35,873 bases of DNA from Methanobacteriota archaeon (GTDB taxonomy: Archaea; Thermoplasmatota; Poseidoniia; Poseidoniales; Thalassarchaeaceae): contig PBZE01000022.1 of assembly GCA_002730095.1 (NCBI GenBank), forward strand, positions 1 through 35,873. Reading direction: 5' to 3'. The stretch's first letter is position 1, and each line of letters begins with the position of its first letter. Position numbers and translations under genes: made by a program. This document shows positions 19,758 to 34,842 of the stretch, piece after piece. The notes beneath the pieces are model-generated. The model was given only the letters and a program-made list of their open reading frames with translations. It had not been told where the DNA came from and made no database searches.

Positions 19758-21308
19758 ATGACTACTGCAGTTGTTTGGTTTCGTAAGTGCCTGAGGATAC
19801 ATGACAATGCGGTATTGAGCTGGGCCTGCGAATCTGATGAGGTCGATAGTGTGCTTCCGGTCTTCATCATGAATGAAGAAATAGGAGCAGAGGGCGACAA
19901 TAAGTTTGGATTCAACAGAACTAGATTCCTAGTTGAATCACTCCGAGATCTTAGCGACAGCCTTGAACGGGAGCTCGGACTCAAACTCATGATCCTAAAA
20001 GGGGCCTATCTGGAGACGATAGATACGCTAATAGATAGCCTGGAAGATGATGCATTCCTCGCTTACGAATACTGCTCGGAACCAGAGATCTTGTTGCTAT
20101 CGGTGGAGATAAACGACTTGGGATCATCAGGTCGGACGGCATTTCGATCAAGGGCCTTCCCTGCTAGTCATACTTTGCTTGATATCGAGAAGACAGTACG
20201 CTCTCCGACCTATTCGAATCCCAAGTCGATGAAGGATATGGAGAGGATTTTTCGAAATCAGTTTGGCACGAATGAAATTGGATTCTATGATATCAAAGAC
20301 CCCCTTCCCGTTCCAGAAATTGGTAAACCAATGGCGGAATTGAAATCTCTGCATAATGAAATTGAGATTTCATATTTGGAGGATTACTTGCTTAGTCAAT
20401 ATCCCGAAAGAATGGGGAAGGATCAATACTTTCACGGAGGAGAGGGAGAGGCTTTGGAAAGGCTGGCGAGAAAGGTCACAGCGAGACCTGCTTACGTTAA
20501 CAACTTCAGGAAGCCGAAGACTTACTCCACCAATTTGCAAGAAGACCCTCGGGAGCCAAGCACGACTGGGCTTTCGCCTTACCTAAGTACGGGATGTCTA
20601 TCGATCAGGAAGATTTGGAAGGAATGTGAGAAGTCATATCTCTCGGGCGAACACAGCCAGCCACCCGAGTCATTGCACGGGCAGATGATGTTCAGAGAGA
20701 TGTTCTACCTACTATCAAGGTCAGTAATTAACTGGGACAAGAGTACAGGAAATGAGAATTGCAAGGAGATCAACTGGGATGACTTCGATCGTTCAAAGAT
20801 GGAGTCTTGGGAGTCAGGGATGACTGGTTACCCATTCATAGATGCAATGATGAGGCAGCTTGATGAAACAGGCTGGATGCATCACCTTGGGCGGCATGCA
20901 GTTTCCTGCTTCCTAACCAGAGGGCAGCTGTGGCAGAGCTGGACAAGAGGCAGAGATGTGTTTGAGAGAAAGCTGGTAGATAGTGATTGGGCGATAAATA
21001 ATGGCAACTGGCTCTGGCTAGCTGGAGTGGCTCCATTTTCGATGCCATACTACAGAGTGTACAATCCATGTCCTGACTCAAAGTCTAGCCTGAATGTTGA
21101 GACCGAGCTTGCGGAGTTCGTCAGACATTGGGTTCCAGAGCTGAAGGACTTTCCATCAAGGTACATCTTTGAGCCCCATCTGGCTCCTTTGCCAATACAG
21201 ATATCATCTGGTTGCGTGATTGGAAAGGACTACCCCTTGCCAATTGTTGACAGGAAAGATAGTAGGAAGAAAAACCTTGCAAGATTCAAAATTAGTCTTC
21301 AAAACTAG
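19758..21308 (+). CDS. Photolyase/cryptochrome of the animal (6-4) photolyase type
   Basis: The 516-residue protein has an N-terminal antenna-binding Rossmann domain (VVWFRKCLRIHDNAVL, about 5-20) and a helical FAD domain. The FAD-side region is unlike CPD photolyases and like eukaryotic (6-4) photolyases and animal cryptochromes: GYPFIDAMMRQLDETGW, then HHLGRHAVSCFLTRGQLWQS, with His at 375, 376 and 380, then DSDWAINNGNWLWLAG, PYYRVYNPC and CVIGKDYPLPIVD. His 376 and 380, four apart, correspond to the pair used by (6-4) enzymes to repair UV photoproducts. ATG 19758 is the first good start; no ribosome site is visible. It is followed by a second photolyase with its own promoter. A pure light-sensing role cannot be excluded. 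Confidence 0.88.
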   Translation: MTTAVVWFRKCLRIHDNAVLSWACESDEVDSVLPVFIMNEEIGAEGDNKFGFNRTRFLVESLRDLSDSLERELGLKLMILKGAYLETIDTLIDSLEDDAFLAYEYCSEPEILLLSVEINDLGSSGRTAFRSRAFPASHTLLDIEKTVRSPTYSNPKSMKDMERIFRNQFGTNEIGFYDIKDPLPVPEIGKPMAELKSLHNEIEISYLEDYLLSQYPERMGKDQYFHGGEGEALERLARKVTARPAYVNNFRKPKTYSTNLQEDPREPSTTGLSPYLSTGCLSIRKIWKECEKSYLSGEHSQPPESLHGQMMFREMFYLLSRSVINWDKSTGNENCKEINWDDFDRSKMESWESGMTGYPFIDAMMRQLDETGWMHHLGRHAVSCFLTRGQLWQSWTRGRDVFERKLVDSDWAINNGNWLWLAGVAPFSMPYYRVYNPCPDSKSSLNVETELAEFVRHWVPELKDFPSRYIFEPHLAPLPIQISSGCVIGKDYPLPIVDRKDSRKKNLARFKISLQN

Positions 21309-21341
21309 ATTTGCATCAAAACAAATGACTGGAAACTGAGG

Positions 21342-21350
21342 TTTATACTA
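21342..21350 (+). promoter_or_regulatory. TATA box of the second photolyase gene
   Basis: TTTATACTA is centred about 26 nt before the ATG at 21371, the standard archaeal distance between TATA box and start site for a leaderless transcript. No ribosome site precedes the ATG. The gene can thus be transcribed independently of the photolyase gene ending at 21308. Confidence 0.6.
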
Positions 21351-21370
21351 CGGTCATTGATTCTTGGTAC

Positions 21371-22903
21371 ATGCCCGTAGACGTGGTCTGGTTCAAGAAG
21401 GACCTGCGTGCTAGAGACCATGCTCCCCTGGTTAGCGCCTCGCTATCGGGGAGTCCAGTAATTTGCTTGTTTATGCTAGAACCAGGAAGACTGGAGCTCG
21501 ATGACACTGATCCGATCCATATCCAATGGGAGTTAGACTGTGCTGTTGAACTCTCAGCCACCCTCAGAGACTCGGGAGCAGATCTTCACTTCGCGGTTGG
21601 AGACGCTGTGAGTATCTTGGAAGAACTAAATCAGTCATATGGGATAGAGAGATTGCTATCTCATGAGGAAACCGGCAACTCATGGTCCTTCGAAAGAGAC
21701 AGGCGAGTACTAAAGTGGAGCATCGACAAAGGCATAGAATGGCTTGAGTGGCCTCACAACGGAGTAGTTCGCAGACTGAAGAGCAGGGACGACTGGAAGA
21801 GACATAGGGACAAGAGGATGAGGGAGGCACTTAGTGACCCTCCGTTCTTCGCCAATAGCATACCATTTAACGGCCCTATCCCAAGCTTGGATGAATTAGG
21901 ATTCCATCCCCGGGATCTGTTAATGAGGCCCGAACCGGGCGAGTCTGCAGCAATTCGGAAGCTACGCTCATTTCTCAATCAAAGGGGCAGAGAGTACAGA
22001 TGGGCCATCTCCAGCCCTACCCTATCCGTAGATCATGGATCTGGACTCTCTCCCTATTTCTCCTCTGGGTCTCTGTCAATGAAGAGAGCAGTACAAGAAA
22101 CATCGTCCAGAATTGAATGGATACGTGAGAACAGATCAATGGTAAATGCACCGGGGGACTGGATCAAGAGCCTCTCCTCATTCAAGAAGAGGCTGGCATG
22201 GAGATGTCACTTCATCCAGAAAATGGAGATGGAGCCAAATCTTGACATGGTCGCCCAGAATCCGGCGATAGACAGGAATCTGGAGAGAGAGCTGGACAAC
22301 AATCGATTCGATAGATGGAGGATGGGCAATACCGGATGGCCGTTTCTTGATGCTTGTATGCGGCAATTAAGATCGACAGGATGGATAAATTTCAGGATGA
22401 GGGCCATGATTATGTCCGCGGCTTCATACAATCTCTGGCTACCCTGGAAAGATACCGGGACCTACCTTGCAAGGCAGTTCCTTGACTACGAGCCCGGGAT
22501 TCACTGGTCACAAATTGGAATGCAGTCTGGCACAACGGGGATTAACACCATCAGGGCCTATTCTATGACGAAGCAAGGAAGGGACCAAGACCCAGAGGGC
22601 GAATATATCAGGAAATGGGTCCCAGAACTCTCCATGGTACCAACCAAATTCATTCATGAGCCGTGGAAGATGCCTGAGGCCCTCCAAAGAGAGCTTTCGT
22701 GCATAATAGGGAAGTCGTACCCATACCCCATACTCGATGAGCTTGAGAGCAGAAAGTCTGGAGTCAGTAGGAGCTATGCGGCCAGGAGGGGAGAGGAAGC
22801 TAGGGCGATTAGCAAGAGGGTGTTACAGCTTCACGGCAGTCGGAGTAAACCTAGGAGAAGGGGCAGAGGAGATTCCAATGGAGTCCAAAAGAAGCTTTTC
22901 TAG
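21371..22903 (+). CDS. Divergent photolyase/cryptochrome-family flavoprotein with basic C-terminal tail
   Basis: The 510-residue protein has the antenna domain (VVWFKKDLRARDHAPLV, 5-21) and the FAD-binding helical domain with GNTGWPFLDACMRQLRSTGW. The active-site region differs from classical CPD photolyases: NFRMRAMIMSAASYNLW replaces the usual HNRLRM stretch, and DYEPGIHWSQIGMQSGTTG replaces the usual stretch rich in Asn and Trp that lines the flavin. This pattern marks a separate bacterial/archaeal subfamily whose activity I cannot name. The last 40 residues are rich in Arg and Lys (SRSKPRRRGRG) and the protein ends QKKLF, like the start of a PCNA-binding motif. It overlaps the convergent AP endonuclease gene by four bases at their stops. 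Confidence 0.82.
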   Translation: MPVDVVWFKKDLRARDHAPLVSASLSGSPVICLFMLEPGRLELDDTDPIHIQWELDCAVELSATLRDSGADLHFAVGDAVSILEELNQSYGIERLLSHEETGNSWSFERDRRVLKWSIDKGIEWLEWPHNGVVRRLKSRDDWKRHRDKRMREALSDPPFFANSIPFNGPIPSLDELGFHPRDLLMRPEPGESAAIRKLRSFLNQRGREYRWAISSPTLSVDHGSGLSPYFSSGSLSMKRAVQETSSRIEWIRENRSMVNAPGDWIKSLSSFKKRLAWRCHFIQKMEMEPNLDMVAQNPAIDRNLERELDNNRFDRWRMGNTGWPFLDACMRQLRSTGWINFRMRAMIMSAASYNLWLPWKDTGTYLARQFLDYEPGIHWSQIGMQSGTTGINTIRAYSMTKQGRDQDPEGEYIRKWVPELSMVPTKFIHEPWKMPEALQRELSCIIGKSYPYPILDELESRKSGVSRSYAARRGEEARAISKRVLQLHGSRSKPRRRGRGDSNGVQKKLF

Positions 22904-29840: not shown

Positions 29841-30698
29841 CTACTCCTCTTCCGTTACCATTTGCGATTGAGATGTCAGAGTAAGAAGAATCGGGATCAA
29901 GGTCATTATCCACCAGTGGAGAATCTCTCCCGGTCCCACCTCCATCTCTCCGTGGAACCTGATCAGTGACTCGTGACCTGGTTCTCCCTCGGAAGGTGGT
30001 GAATCAATGACTGATTGCCTTTCATCCTCCTCGAGAAGACCTAGGTCATACCCCACCGAGTCGAAGTGGAATGTTATTCCATTGAAACCAATACTGGCCC
30101 CGCTAGTCTCCCGATAGTGTGCGAACTGATCCTCCCCCACCGAGTTTTGCTGTGTGGCGCTGTCGAAACCGCCTGTTGATGAGGAGTCGTCACTCTCATC
30201 GGCCCCGGCAATTCCAAAGTCCACGGCGATAGCCAGGGGTACCGCAGTCAGGATAACGATCATGCCGATTAACCACATTGTTACAAGTCCGGACTTCATT
30301 CTCCTCGAGGGTCTTTTTGTGGCAAGGAAAATAGCAGCTATCAGTGCGAACATTGTCATCTGGACGATGCTCCGGGATAGGTCGAGGCAGGACCCCACGC
30401 ACTCGAAACCTCGTGATTCTCCAGAGTCCCCTGCCTCGGGGCCTTCACCCTGTTCATCGACGTTGGCTGTGACATCTTCCCTTTCCACCCAATACAGCAG
30501 AAGAGGAGTAGCGTTTTGGATGTTCATCTCAAAGGACTCTTGGTCACTGTCAATGACGTATTCGGATGAGATACTGGGATTTCTATCCAGGCCTTCAGTG
30601 TAAGTCCCAAGTGCTGAAATCTCAAACCATGCACCATTCCATCCCATTAACAGGAAGAATGCGGCAAACGCCAGCGATACCATTCCCTTGTTCTGCAT
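29841..30698 (-). CDS. Membrane protein of unknown function, four predicted helices
   Basis: I do not recognise this 285-residue protein. Hydrophobic segments are visible at about 7-25 (an N-terminal helix or signal anchor), 111-127, 137-158 and 258-277. The first loop (about 26-105) and the loop at about 160-255 are acidic and Ser/Gly-rich, as expected of domains outside the cell. Two Cys in CVGSCLD lie just before the second helix. It starts 15 nt after the large LDLa-like protein, on the same strand, so the two are probably cotranscribed and may work together at the cell surface. Confidence 0.75.
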   Translation of the reverse strand: MQNKGMVSLAFAAFFLLMGWNGAWFEISALGTYTEGLDRNPSISSEYVIDSDQESFEMNIQNATPLLLYWVEREDVTANVDEQGEGPEAGDSGESRGFECVGSCLDLSRSIVQMTMFALIAAIFLATKRPSRRMKSGLVTMWLIGMIVILTAVPLAIAVDFGIAGADESDDSSSTGGFDSATQQNSVGEDQFAHYRETSGASIGFNGITFHFDSVGYDLGLLEEDERQSVIDSPPSEGEPGHESLIRFHGEMEVGPGEILHWWIMTLIPILLTLTSQSQMVTEEE

Positions 30699-30713: not shown

Positions 30714-33245
30714 CTAGTCCTCTCTCTTAGAGGATGAGATCGCTGCAATCAAGAGGATTACGGAAATTGCCATTGCACCTATCCCAGGAACTGTGTCATC
30801 TCCATCGTCGGTTGGTAATCCGAAAGGCCTGAGTGGATCATCATCCTCCCAATCGAACAACCCGTCTCCGTCATCGTCCTGATCGAAGACATCAGGCACC
30901 CCATCCAAATCCGTATCAGTCAAATCGATGTCTGGGATAAACTCGGGACCCAATATGTCATACAAATCCTCGACATCATGCTTTGACCTCGGCGCTATGT
31001 CCTCCGAATCAGTCAAGCCGAGGATTTCTGCTTTCACATCCCTAGCGTCATCGCCATCATTGTAATCGATATTCAATTGGATGTCATGGCCTCTGACTCC
31101 GAAGATACTCGGGCCTAGCAGTACCTCTGATGAGTTGTCGCCATCCTCGTCGTTCATGATTGCCATTCCTACTACACGTGACTCTTCCGTATTCCAGAAG
31201 AGCAAACCACAGGAGTCTTCGAGGGACATGACTGGCTCTGTTGGGACATTGTCCTCAACCAATTCTGCCAGCTTCTCCCCGAAGGCTTCCATGGTCTTGT
31301 TTAGATTTGATTCCATCAGTGCCTCAATCATTCCCTCGAGTCTGCTTGCCGCTTCTCCGGTACCGTCATTCTCGTCGGAACCGTCGGAGCAGTCTTCCTC
31401 TCCGTCATTCTCCCAGTCTGCTGGGATTTGCTCCCCGCTGTCGCATGTGAAGGTGTCCATTCCACCAGACTCATCAGAGCCATCTGAGCAGTCCTCGTAA
31501 CCGTCATTCTCCCAGTCTGCTGGGATTTCCTCGCCGTTATCACACAGGAATACGCCTGATCCGTCATCTCCAGATACTTCCTCCACCCATGACTCAACCT
31601 GTGACTGTATCACGTTCAGAAGCTCACTAACCCCATTATCGAATGCTGGCATAAGGGAGTGTCCCATCATGAATGCCATCCCAGGGGAAATAGGAGGGGT
31701 GACTCCGCACTGCACATCCACCATTGTGTCATCTATACTCAGTCTCTCAGTCCCTCCCACGGGCGGGCATTCCCAGTCCCATATCGAACCTGATGAGATC
31801 TGGATGTCGTCACTGAAGGTACCCTGGCCCGGAATGGAATCGGAAAGCTGGACATTGAATGCGTCTAAGTTGATTCCGAAATCCTCGGTCGGAAGGTCAC
31901 TCATCTCTACAGACAAGGAATATCCGGTGAGAGTGGAGAACTCGCCCTCAATAATACCGCCTCCGTACTCGCCACCGCTTGTTGGTGATTCTGGGATACC
32001 AATGAACAGATAATCTCCGCTCCATTGGTATCGATTCCATCCGGATTCCCCCCATGGGGTTTCCCAGTAGATCAGACTGGAGTCTATCTGGTCTTCCCCT
32101 GCTAGTGGAAATCCGCATAGTCCCAAGGAGGAGTCCCACTGCTCCCCCCCGTCATCCATGCAGTCTGATTCGGATTGGTAGTGTTCCCTGCTATCGTATG
32201 CCTTGGAATACCAAATGTGGTCAGCGGTTCTAGCCACTATCTGATCTTCTTGTTCGTCAAACCACAAGTAGTGGTCTTCAGCCGGGGGCAAGTCCGGCTG
32301 ACTGCCATCCAATGATAGATTCCGTGGAACTATGGTATTGCACCAGCTTGGCAGCGATATTCCTTCGATTGCTTCATTGTAGGATCCCTCATCCAGACTG
32401 GATAGAGAGGTGGCCTTGACATCGACTCTGCAATCCCATACCTCGTACTCATCAGAGCCATCTGAGCAGTCCTCATAACCATCATTCTCCCAGTCGGAGG
32501 GAATAACCTCCCCATTGTCACAGTAAAACGATTCATCCTCGTCGTTGTCCGATTGTTGGCTTAGATCGTGCAAGTAGTCCAATGGGCCATCTACCCTCCA
32601 CTCGGAAGCCATAGAGGGTATCTCCATGGAAATTGAGTAGCCCAAGTCTATCTCAGGATTCTCAACTTCTCCATCCGCTATGACTTGGAAATTCATAGAT
32701 AGGTCTGCGATGTCACTGATAGCTCCCGTCATCTCCAGATCGCCCCCATAAACCATCATTTCCGAATCAACGTACTCGGTATAACTTGCATCGACAACCA
32801 GTGTGATTTCTTGGGATGCACTGTACCAGATGTCTATGCTTTCGGAATCATCGTTCCAGGCCATGGTAAACCCGGCATTTGCGAGAAGCCCGTGCCTCAG
32901 TGTGAGCTCTGTCATCCTCTTAGTCACCTGGTGCGTATTTCCATATATGTCCTGTATCTCGATGATCTCGGGGTCATCCCATGATTCGATGTAGAAGTGG
33001 CTAGCTCCACTCAGGACCTGATCTGACTCCAAGATAAAACCAGCATAATCGGCGGCTTCTTCGAGATCCTCATTGGTTGCTTCCGTATCGACGCCTGTCA
33101 TGTTCTGGACGTCTCCTTCGAAATGTCCCCAGTCGTAAGAAAGCCCCCAGATGGCAGAGTCGCTCGGACCTACTGCAGCAGCAGATGGGGCCATTGCCGA
33201 TAGCAAAAATAGGCAGATGATGGCTGTCAGAGTCTTCTTTGTCAT
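30714..33245 (-). CDS. Large secreted, membrane-anchored protein with LDL-receptor class A-like repeats
   Basis: The 843-residue protein has a signal peptide (MTKKTLTAIICLFLLSAM, cleaved after AAA) and a C-terminal membrane helix (AMAISVILLIAAI) ending in basic SSSKRED. Three repeats at residues 240-266, 566-592 and 599-625 have the form F-C-x-x-G-x-x-I-P-x-x-W-x-N-D-G-x-x-D-C-S-D-G-S-D-E, the second half of the eukaryotic LDL receptor class A module. Near the end is an Asp-rich stretch (DTDLDGVPDVFDQDDDGDG) like calcium-binding type-3 repeats. The rest is beta-rich and not recognised. ATG 33245 is chosen over 33311 because it begins the signal peptide. It is probably a calcium-dependent surface protein; its binding partner is unknown. 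Confidence 0.8.
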   Translation of the reverse strand: MTKKTLTAIICLFLLSAMAPSAAAVGPSDSAIWGLSYDWGHFEGDVQNMTGVDTEATNEDLEEAADYAGFILESDQVLSGASHFYIESWDDPEIIEIQDIYGNTHQVTKRMTELTLRHGLLANAGFTMAWNDDSESIDIWYSASQEITLVVDASYTEYVDSEMMVYGGDLEMTGAISDIADLSMNFQVIADGEVENPEIDLGYSISMEIPSMASEWRVDGPLDYLHDLSQQSDNDEDESFYCDNGEVIPSDWENDGYEDCSDGSDEYEVWDCRVDVKATSLSSLDEGSYNEAIEGISLPSWCNTIVPRNLSLDGSQPDLPPAEDHYLWFDEQEDQIVARTADHIWYSKAYDSREHYQSESDCMDDGGEQWDSSLGLCGFPLAGEDQIDSSLIYWETPWGESGWNRYQWSGDYLFIGIPESPTSGGEYGGGIIEGEFSTLTGYSLSVEMSDLPTEDFGINLDAFNVQLSDSIPGQGTFSDDIQISSGSIWDWECPPVGGTERLSIDDTMVDVQCGVTPPISPGMAFMMGHSLMPAFDNGVSELLNVIQSQVESWVEEVSGDDGSGVFLCDNGEEIPADWENDGYEDCSDGSDESGGMDTFTCDSGEQIPADWENDGEEDCSDGSDENDGTGEAASRLEGMIEALMESNLNKTMEAFGEKLAELVEDNVPTEPVMSLEDSCGLLFWNTEESRVVGMAIMNDEDGDNSSEVLLGPSIFGVRGHDIQLNIDYNDGDDARDVKAEILGLTDSEDIAPRSKHDVEDLYDILGPEFIPDIDLTDTDLDGVPDVFDQDDDGDGLFDWEDDDPLRPFGLPTDDGDDTVPGIGAMAISVILLIAAISSSKRED
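31371..31451 (-). repeat. LDLa-like repeat 3
   Basis: Codes for residues 599-625 of the surface protein, with FTCDSGEQIPADWENDG then EEDCSDGSDE. It lies 18 nt from repeat 2 and is nearly the same at DNA level over the central part, which suggests recent duplication. Confidence 0.8.
31470..31550 (-). repeat. LDLa-like repeat 2
   Basis: Codes for residues 566-592, with FLCDNGEEIPADWENDG then YEDCSDGSDE. The acidic DCSDGSDE is the calcium-binding turn of LDL receptor class A modules; only two of the module's six Cys are present. Confidence 0.8.
32448..32528 (-). repeat. LDLa-like repeat 1
   Basis: Codes for residues 240-266, with FYCDNGEVIPSDWENDG then YEDCSDGSDE. It is separated from the other two by about 300 residues of unrecognised sequence. 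Confidence 0.8.
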
Positions 33246-33291
33246 GGCTAACACAGGGAGTCTTATGGCTTGAGTATTGCCCCGAAAACCA

Positions 33292-34842
33292 TCATAATGG
33301 GATGTTTCCATGCTTTTTCGGAGGTACCCATTCTCTCTTATTCAATAGGGGCTTTATGGCCCTGACGAGTAGTTTCCTGGTCTCTGAAGGCTCTATGACG
33401 TCATCGAGCCAGCCGTGCTTGGCAGCCACATATGGGTCGCCAAACTTGGACTTGTATTCGCCAATTAGGCCCTTCCTAACTTTGTCTACGTCATCAGCTT
33501 CAGATAGCTCCTTTCGATGTATGATGTTCACCGCACCATCTGCGCCCATTACTGCGAGCTCCCCCCCGGGCCAAGAGACATTGTAGTCGGATCCTAGATG
33601 CTTGCAGCTCATGGCCAGATATGCTCCACCGTAGGCCTTCCTAGTGACTACGGCGAGCTTTGGGACTGTGGCCTCCGCATACGAGTAGAGCAGCTTGGCG
33701 CCGTGTCTGATTATGCCTCCCCACTCCTGCACGGTCCCCGGGAGGAATCCAGGGACGTCTACGAACGTCACGATTGGGATATTGTAGCAGTCGCAGGTTC
33801 TGATGAATCTAGCAGCCTTCACTGAGGCATCAATATCGAGGCACCCTGCCAAAACACTAGGCTGGTTGCCCACTATTCCAACAGAATGCCCATCAAGACG
33901 GGCGAATCCTATGACGACGTTCTCTGCGTAGTACTCGGAAAGTTCGACAAACCTCCTCTCATCGACGATTTCCTTGATGACGTCTCTCATGTCATATGGC
34001 CGGTTTGGATCTTTGGGTACCAAGTCCTCCAAGCCCTCGCACGACCTATCTCCTGGATCGGGTCCCCTCGTCACCAATGGCTCTGCTAGAGTGTGATCTG
34101 GTAGGAATGAAAGTATCTCCGCAGTGATGTCAAACGCGTCTTGCTCGTCATCTGCTATCATGCATGCGACCCCGCTTCTGCTGGCATGCTGTTCAGCCCC
34201 CCCGAGACTGTCCTCATCCACGGATCCGTCAATAATCTCGGGAATCATGTATGGGCTTCTCATGAACATCCTGCCGTGCTCCGACCCCAGTATTACGAAA
34301 TCGGACAGCCCTGCTGCTAGAGCGCTGACTCCCGATACGGTTCCGAGTACCAAGGAGAACATGGGGATTCGTCCCGAGCATGCGACCAGAATATCCAACA
34401 GCTCTCCTGTCGCACCCAGAGATGTCACTCCCTCCTCTACCCGCTGTCCGTCCCCATCCCAGATACCGATTAGTGGAAGCTGCGACTTCTCTGCGAATTC
34501 AGCGACCTTTGCCACCTTCCTCGCATGCATCTCGCCCATTGTCCCTGAAAATACGGCGTAGTCTTGGGCGAAGCAGACGACTCGCCGGCCATCGATCATA
34601 CCGTGACCTGCGACCACCCCATCCCCCATGGGACGGTGGAGGTGCATGTTGTGATCGCCAGCTCTGTGCTGAACGAACGAGTCGACCTCGACGAATGACC
34701 CTTTATCGAGAAGATTCGATATTCTTTCCCTTGCAGTCTTCTTTCCCTCTGCCCTCAGTTCCCTGAGGCTCGATGAGTCTCCTGGAGAATGCGCCAATTG
34801 CCTCATCGCATCCAGGTCATCGCTCCGCGAGGCCTCCGGCAT
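33292..34842 (-). CDS. Acyl-CoA carboxylase carboxyltransferase (beta) subunit
   Basis: The subunit moves CO2 from carboxybiotin to acetyl- or propionyl-CoA. The protein (516 residues from ATG 34842) has the family opening GKKTARERISNLLD, the first crotonase-like half with FAQDYAVFSGTMGEMHARK, the second half with VPGFLPGTVQEWGGIIRHGA and RKAYGGAYLAMSCKH, and ends as the family does with KHGNIPL. No biotin carboxylase or biotin carrier gene is in the window. An ATG at 34869, 11 nt after the upstream stop, is another possible start; neither has a clear ribosome site. Substrate choice between acetyl- and propionyl-CoA is open. Confidence 0.92.
   Translation of the reverse strand: MPEASRSDDLDAMRQLAHSPGDSSSLRELRAEGKKTARERISNLLDKGSFVEVDSFVQHRAGDHNMHLHRPMGDGVVAGHGMIDGRRVVCFAQDYAVFSGTMGEMHARKVAKVAEFAEKSQLPLIGIWDGDGQRVEEGVTSLGATGELLDILVACSGRIPMFSLVLGTVSGVSALAAGLSDFVILGSEHGRMFMRSPYMIPEIIDGSVDEDSLGGAEQHASRSGVACMIADDEQDAFDITAEILSFLPDHTLAEPLVTRGPDPGDRSCEGLEDLVPKDPNRPYDMRDVIKEIVDERRFVELSEYYAENVVIGFARLDGHSVGIVGNQPSVLAGCLDIDASVKAARFIRTCDCYNIPIVTFVDVPGFLPGTVQEWGGIIRHGAKLLYSYAEATVPKLAVVTRKAYGGAYLAMSCKHLGSDYNVSWPGGELAVMGADGAVNIIHRKELSEADDVDKVRKGLIGEYKSKFGDPYVAAKHGWLDDVIEPSETRKLLVRAIKPLLNKREWVPPKKHGNIPL

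Follow-up and report, generated by a model that had tools for sequence, protein, structure and literature searches.

The surface protein P0001, encoded in the 35,873-nucleotide stretch of archaeal DNA analysed here (the window), carries three small modules that we read, with a probability of about 0.6, as a laterally acquired and reduced form of the LDL-receptor class A (LDLa) module, one that would retain the calcium cage and the C2-C5 disulfide and act as a surface-displayed, Ca2+-dependent binding or adhesion element. Within this reading, the identity of the modules as reduced LDLa is held with high confidence. LDLa is a small domain secured by three disulfides, natively paired 1-3, 2-5 and 4-6, and by one Ca2+. 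The calcium ligands, as known from LDLR LA5, are side chains of the Asp directly after C4, the Asp directly before C5 and the Asp-Glu pair closing the SDE motif, joined by the backbone carbonyls of two residues, the Trp and one in a loop.

The gene for P0001 lies on the minus strand, as do all of its parts described below, and its open reading frame occupies 30714..33311 (865 aa, with homologs across Poseidoniia). The original prediction began the gene at 33245, a plausible choice and the likely start (M23, for an 843 aa product), but the reading frame itself extends to 33311. A putative signal peptide, residues 23-47 (33171..33245), was read from the sequence MTKKTLTAIICLFLLSAMAPSAAAV and is helical in the structure model. 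It is followed by a conserved N-terminal domain of about residues 53-244 (32580..33155), with five very long beta strands, each of 25-29 residues, and two helices. This domain has no confident PDB match, just weak hits to long-strand proteins at a probability of about 0.02. An undescribed fold or one of a lipid-binding type is possible. The first LDLa-type module, R1 (residues 262-288, 32448..32528; FYCDNGEVIPSDWENDGYEDCSDGSDE), sits in the linker after this domain. Next come a variable insertion, about residues 289-448 (31968..32447), predicted to be disordered and absent from most orthologs, then a conserved middle beta region, about residues 451-536 (31704..31961), and a long helix, about residues 543-579 (31575..31685), directly before modules R2 (residues 588-614, 31470..31550; FLCDNGEEIPADWENDGYEDCSDGSDE) and R3 (residues 621-647, 31371..31451; FTCDSGEQIPADWENDGEEDCSDGSDE). 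The structure model places helices behind these modules, at about residues 650-688 (31248..31364). Toward the C-terminus, acidic DxDxDG repeats of the thrombospondin-3 type can be read at residues 796-826 (30834..30926), and the PF02412 TSP_3 model matches two of 18 members of the P0001 family. The protein ends in a probable anchor, a variant resembling PGF-CTERM (30717..30794; TVPGIGAMAISVILLIAAISSSKRED). Elsewhere in the window, positions 19758-22903 of the plus strand hold two photolyase-family genes in tandem.

Profile searches leave little doubt about what the modules are. P0001 scores 52.3 bits against PF00057 Ldl_recept_a (E 6.6e-14; cut-off 24.1), and R1, R2 and R3 each exceed the cut-off singly, with 27.0, 28.7 and 32.6 bits. 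A profile built from bacterial modules only gives the three copies 37-40 bits, whereas 2000 shuffles of P0001 peak at 13.7. The shared pattern of the copies, FxCxxGxxIPxxWENDGxEDCSDGSDE, aligns to solved LDLa modules with no gap across the roughly 28 residues that run from F-x-C to SDE, and the two cysteines that each copy keeps fall at C2 and C5; of the full set of six, paired 1-3, 2-5 and 4-6, each copy has two. The calcium-ligand positions, by reading, are all present in R1, R2 and R3. Most of the original prediction is borne out by the profile, the predicted fold and the survey described below: three LDLa-like repeats on an archaeal surface protein, a minimal form of the module, with two of six cysteines and the calcium-binding acidic residues kept. 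It was right that the C-terminal half of the module is conserved, but not in restricting the conservation to that half, as the N-terminal FxCxxGxxIPxxW is also present. Its statement that repeats 2 and 3 are almost identical in DNA was too strong: they agree at 64/81 positions, compared with 66/81 for R1/R2 (46 of the last 48) and 57/81 for R1/R3.

Could such modules have arisen by convergence on a calcium loop within acidic low-complexity sequence, unrelated to LDLa? The proteins are rich in Asp and Glu, and DxDxDG loops are common in them. Even so, the match includes the F, G, I-P and W positions, the C2-C5 spacing is almost always 18 or 19, the predicted fold is that of LDLa, and shuffled sequences stay below 14 bits. 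As a DNA pattern, the module was found three times against 0.00 expected by chance, and this result, the ungapped match and the shuffle scores led us to reject convergence on acidic low complexity. Because the ungapped, full-length similarity extends to positions that are neither cysteines nor calcium ligands, convergence is very improbable, and homology with LDLa is close to certain.

Structure prediction points the same way. An AlphaFold2 (AF2) model of R2-R3, built on a 31-row alignment, has a mean pLDDT of 83; in it, two hairpins each lead into a short helix and a loop. In a Foldseek search with this model, all 40 of the 40 matches at E<0.001 were LDLa-bearing chains, and in the model of the whole protein one module superposes on VLDLR LA1 with 0.7 Å over 29 residues (TMt 0.76). 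As AF2 models no Ca2+ and may recall LDLa from its training, and as Foldseek also uses residues, the predicted match to LDLa is consistent with the identification but is not proof of it. Neither of the two outcomes named beforehand as contrary to the original prediction, a lack of profile similarity and a predicted structure with no LDLa-like turn, did occur.

The distribution of cysteines across related modules provides a further line of evidence. Of the six cysteines, only C2 and C5 occur in 251 of the 273 distinct archaeal modules, and C3 and C4 are absent from all (0/273). Asn replaces C4 in 82% of the archaeal modules, and all four acidic calcium-ligand positions are found in 92% of 271. 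The bacterial modules have all six cysteines in 45 of 112 cases, and most of the others lack C3 but possess C4 and C6. Here C4 and C6 are tightly coupled: C6 is present in 104/104 modules with C4 and absent from 7/8 without it (Fisher p 2e-10, just indicative, as related sequences are not independent). Counts of C1 are to be read with the caveat that it is hard to distinguish from the final Cys of the preceding module. One bacterial module (L054; CSDGACLDSVLVNNGVSNCADGDDE) keeps C1 and C3, lacks C4 and C6 and has Asn at C4, an alternative two-bond form. Judged from sequence, then, the cysteines behave as the disulfide pairs of the LDLa arrangement. Since they go missing as pairs, homology with LDLa and a single C2-C5 bond in the archaeal form are favoured.

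The survey of related archaeal genomes called for by the original prediction showed the module to be widespread in Poseidoniia: a profile made from archaeal copies matches in 147/195 genomes of the class and in 22/24 genera. The more general PF00057 model matches in 92/390 genomes of the phylum, all 92 in class Poseidoniia, with no match in the remainder of this phylum sample and in 0/14 control genomes. These numbers come from a systematic survey confined to a sample of one phylum. Named records place carriers in Thalassarchaeaceae and Poseidoniaceae, and Marine Group III is likely among them. The DNA-pattern matches listed also include Myxococcota and other MAGs of deltaproteobacterial type, Endozoicomonas, Kistimonas, Salinisphaera, Nocardia, Bacteroidota and Neomarinimicrobiota. 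A single archaeal protein may have up to 23 copies; L078, L085 and L144, proteins of Poseidoniaceae type with up to 1597 residues, combine 18-23 two-cysteine LDLa modules with PGF-CTERM and are the archaeal counterpart, in layout, of the megalin array. The genome of the window encodes a second module protein (C46:1532-1741, L004), with EF-hand pairs, two LDLa modules and a PGF-type tail. A genome labelled Deltaproteobacteria (L136 and L138; JAOMAZ01, AH-558-G13) has two-cysteine modules of the Poseidoniia type and also encodes a 27-32% homolog of P0001 with a similar tail; this genome is mislabelled, contaminated or a case of transfer. We found no paper that connects LDLa with either Poseidoniales or Marine Group II, which is weak evidence given that subscription papers were mostly outside the coverage of the search.

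Perhaps the one-disulfide module stands near a primitive LDLa, from which the four- and six-cysteine forms grew by the addition of bonds. The four-cysteine bacterial modules would fit as an intermediate in such a series, and cysteines do come and go in pairs. Yet the series can equally be read as stepwise loss, the archaeal module is confined within the phylum to one class, and six-cysteine modules already exist in both bacteria and animals, so that we regard a primitive form as improbable. The direction of change, reduced or primitive, is not provable from a module of just 30 residues. In the preferred reading, the module probably entered Poseidoniia laterally, and the C1-C3 and C4-C6 bonds were lost or never present.

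The nearest relatives of the archaeal modules may not be those of animal receptors. When cysteine columns are left out, the similarity of archaeal modules to module 1 of human glucosidase II beta (0.527) equals that among themselves (0.524), compared with 0.46-0.47 to bacterial modules and 0.47 to LDLR/LRP2; this comparison uses one glucosidase II beta sequence, letter-checked against 8D43, and four receptor modules, LDLR LA5 among them. For one Poseidoniales module, the sole PDB match is glucosidase II beta (E 3.8e-9). The PRKCSH-like model PF12999 matches 10/18 members of the P0001 family and 30/119 genomes (11/119 pass the cut-off), reaching 61 bits in L078, and matches 0/10 bacterial module proteins. 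P0001 itself gives 14 bits, below the cut-off of 34.9, and its own copies are about equally near LRP2 and glucosidase II beta.

Archaeal modules share with the N-terminal LDLa pair of glucosidase II beta (PDB 5F0E, 7KBJ) the V-N-D around the C4 position, the lack of C3 and the DGSDEP motif, and some of them share its 19-residue C2-C5 spacing as well. Glucosidase II beta differs in having an extra Cys two residues before C5 and another behind the module, and it is an ER protein, unlike the anchored surface proteins considered here; the remainder of it, beyond the LDLa modules, was not found here. With the PF00057 modules of VLDLR LA1, LRP2 and LDLR, the archaeal ones share the register F-x-C-x-x-G-x-x-I-P-x-x-W-x-x-DG-x-x-DC-x-DGSDE, the calcium-ligand positions, the predicted fold and the arrangement in tandem arrays, but they are without C1, C3, C4 and C6 and reside in anchored prokaryotic proteins. 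The arrays of Myxococcota and other bacteria (L047, L066, L086, L122) likewise share tandem modules, register and calcium positions, but keep their own C4 and C6, and often all six cysteines, and have no PF12999 match.

By profile, the archaeal modules lean toward the glucosidase II beta type rather than the animal receptors. This likeness could reflect shared descent or the repeated use of Asn in modules that lack C4, and it makes animal receptors something other than the natural comparison. We set aside the link to animal receptors as such on the strength of the PDB match and the PF12999 results. The suggestion of the original prediction that the repeats are like the ancestor of an animal receptor module is likewise unsupported: in the phylum sample the module is restricted to Poseidoniia, bacteria have six- and four-cysteine versions, and the archaeal modules fit the profile and structures of glucosidase II beta more closely than bacterial ones do and, in part, more closely than they fit animal receptors. 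A more specific proposal is that the modules of Poseidoniia and the eukaryotic glucosidase II beta pair form one sub-type, with Asn at C4 and no C3, apart from the animal-receptor type, moved by an exchange of genes that linked marine archaea with eukaryotes, early or later, the one-disulfide form marking the lineage; we consider this doubtful. A viral origin was rejected, with the archaeal type in 0/96 matching viral contigs; a first profile scan for a viral source had confirmed nothing. These 96 IMG/VR contigs (L182-L277, for example L216 and L260) encode a very uniform secreted protein of 160-270 aa. Its YCGDDPANWTQYSPNGCVPNG..YLNDGWEDCVDGSDE is a further LDLa-like module, likewise with Asn at C4, and its C-terminus resembles a Bacteroidota secretion tail. 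The same type of module is found in a Crocinitomicaceae protein (L045) with PKD, Kazal and Por_Secre_tail domains, and the contigs are probably phages of marine Bacteroidota.

How might the modules be held at the cell surface? A Pro-TM-Arg/Lys ending is present in 60 of the 91 complete archaeal module proteins; about a third have no anchor by this simple rule. The PGF-CTERM model PF18204 passes in three of eight tested module proteins (L078, L144, L019), and TIGR04126 passes in L079. P0001 shares with surface proteins of the PGF-CTERM/archaeosortase A system the Pro-TM-Arg/Lys tail and an archaeosortase A in the genome (TIGR04125, 105 bits against a cut-off of 75), but its tail reads PGI and escapes the models, with no match to TIGR04126 or PF18204. 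From these sequence features, most LDLa-module proteins of Poseidoniia look archaeosortase-anchored, presumably at the cell surface.

The P0001 family occurs in both Poseidoniales families, and 28/99 genomes of the taxonomic family, many of them incomplete, have a clear full-length homolog. Downstream of the P0001 gene, after a gap of 15 bases, lies a conserved gene on the same strand (29841..30698, minus) for a 285 aa protein in which four hydrophobic stretches were read by eye. In both families this four-TM gene adjoins the P0001-family gene, with 23/24 sufficiently long loci showing the pair; the upstream carboxyltransferase is conserved just in nearer relatives. Members of the family have one to seven modules, nearly always at the same site between helices, and extra copies occur in the linker where R1 sits.

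The modules would be displayed in two linkers of P0001, chiefly between long helices. Seawater contains about 10 mM Ca2+, in which they would most likely be calcium-loaded, each folding around Ca2+ into a rigid, acidic knob that a single disulfide closes. Such knobs would mediate Ca2+-dependent binding or adhesion as part of a surface complex that includes the four-TM neighbour. In LDL receptors, the Trp beside the cage and the acidic residues grip a lysine of the ligand; because the Trp is kept in all three copies of P0001, these could bind basic peptides or other macromolecules in a calcium-dependent way.

The main rival to a binding function is that the modules act only as spacers. Stabilised by calcium, these stiff, acidic linkers would set how far apart the domains of long surface proteins lie and would have no ligand of their own, with the same module identity as in our reading. 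Their position in linkers and their variable number, one to seven in the P0001 family and 23 elsewhere, would suit a spacer, as would their partner domains, EF-hand and TSP3, which likewise bind calcium and are stiffened by it; moreover, the ligand-binding Trp is retained in just 39% of aligned archaeal modules. The retention of Trp in every P0001 copy and the adjoining four-TM gene, which suggests a specific complex, argue in the other direction. On balance we lean toward binding, and consider a spacer role unlikely though well ahead of a primitive or convergent origin.

The LDLa modules of Poseidoniia are a variant of a known module, already recognised by Pfam, and no animal receptor, which corrects the view that LDLa modules point to animals. 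The archaeal one-bond modules, together with the two- and three-bond versions of bacteria, form a natural series that bears on how much the calcium cage can hold by itself and on which of the LDLa disulfides are dispensable. Poseidoniia are uncultured and among the commonest archaea of the ocean, and they gain a recognisable surface-protein system, an anchored protein with a four-TM partner, that could be tested for the binding of particles and macromolecules.
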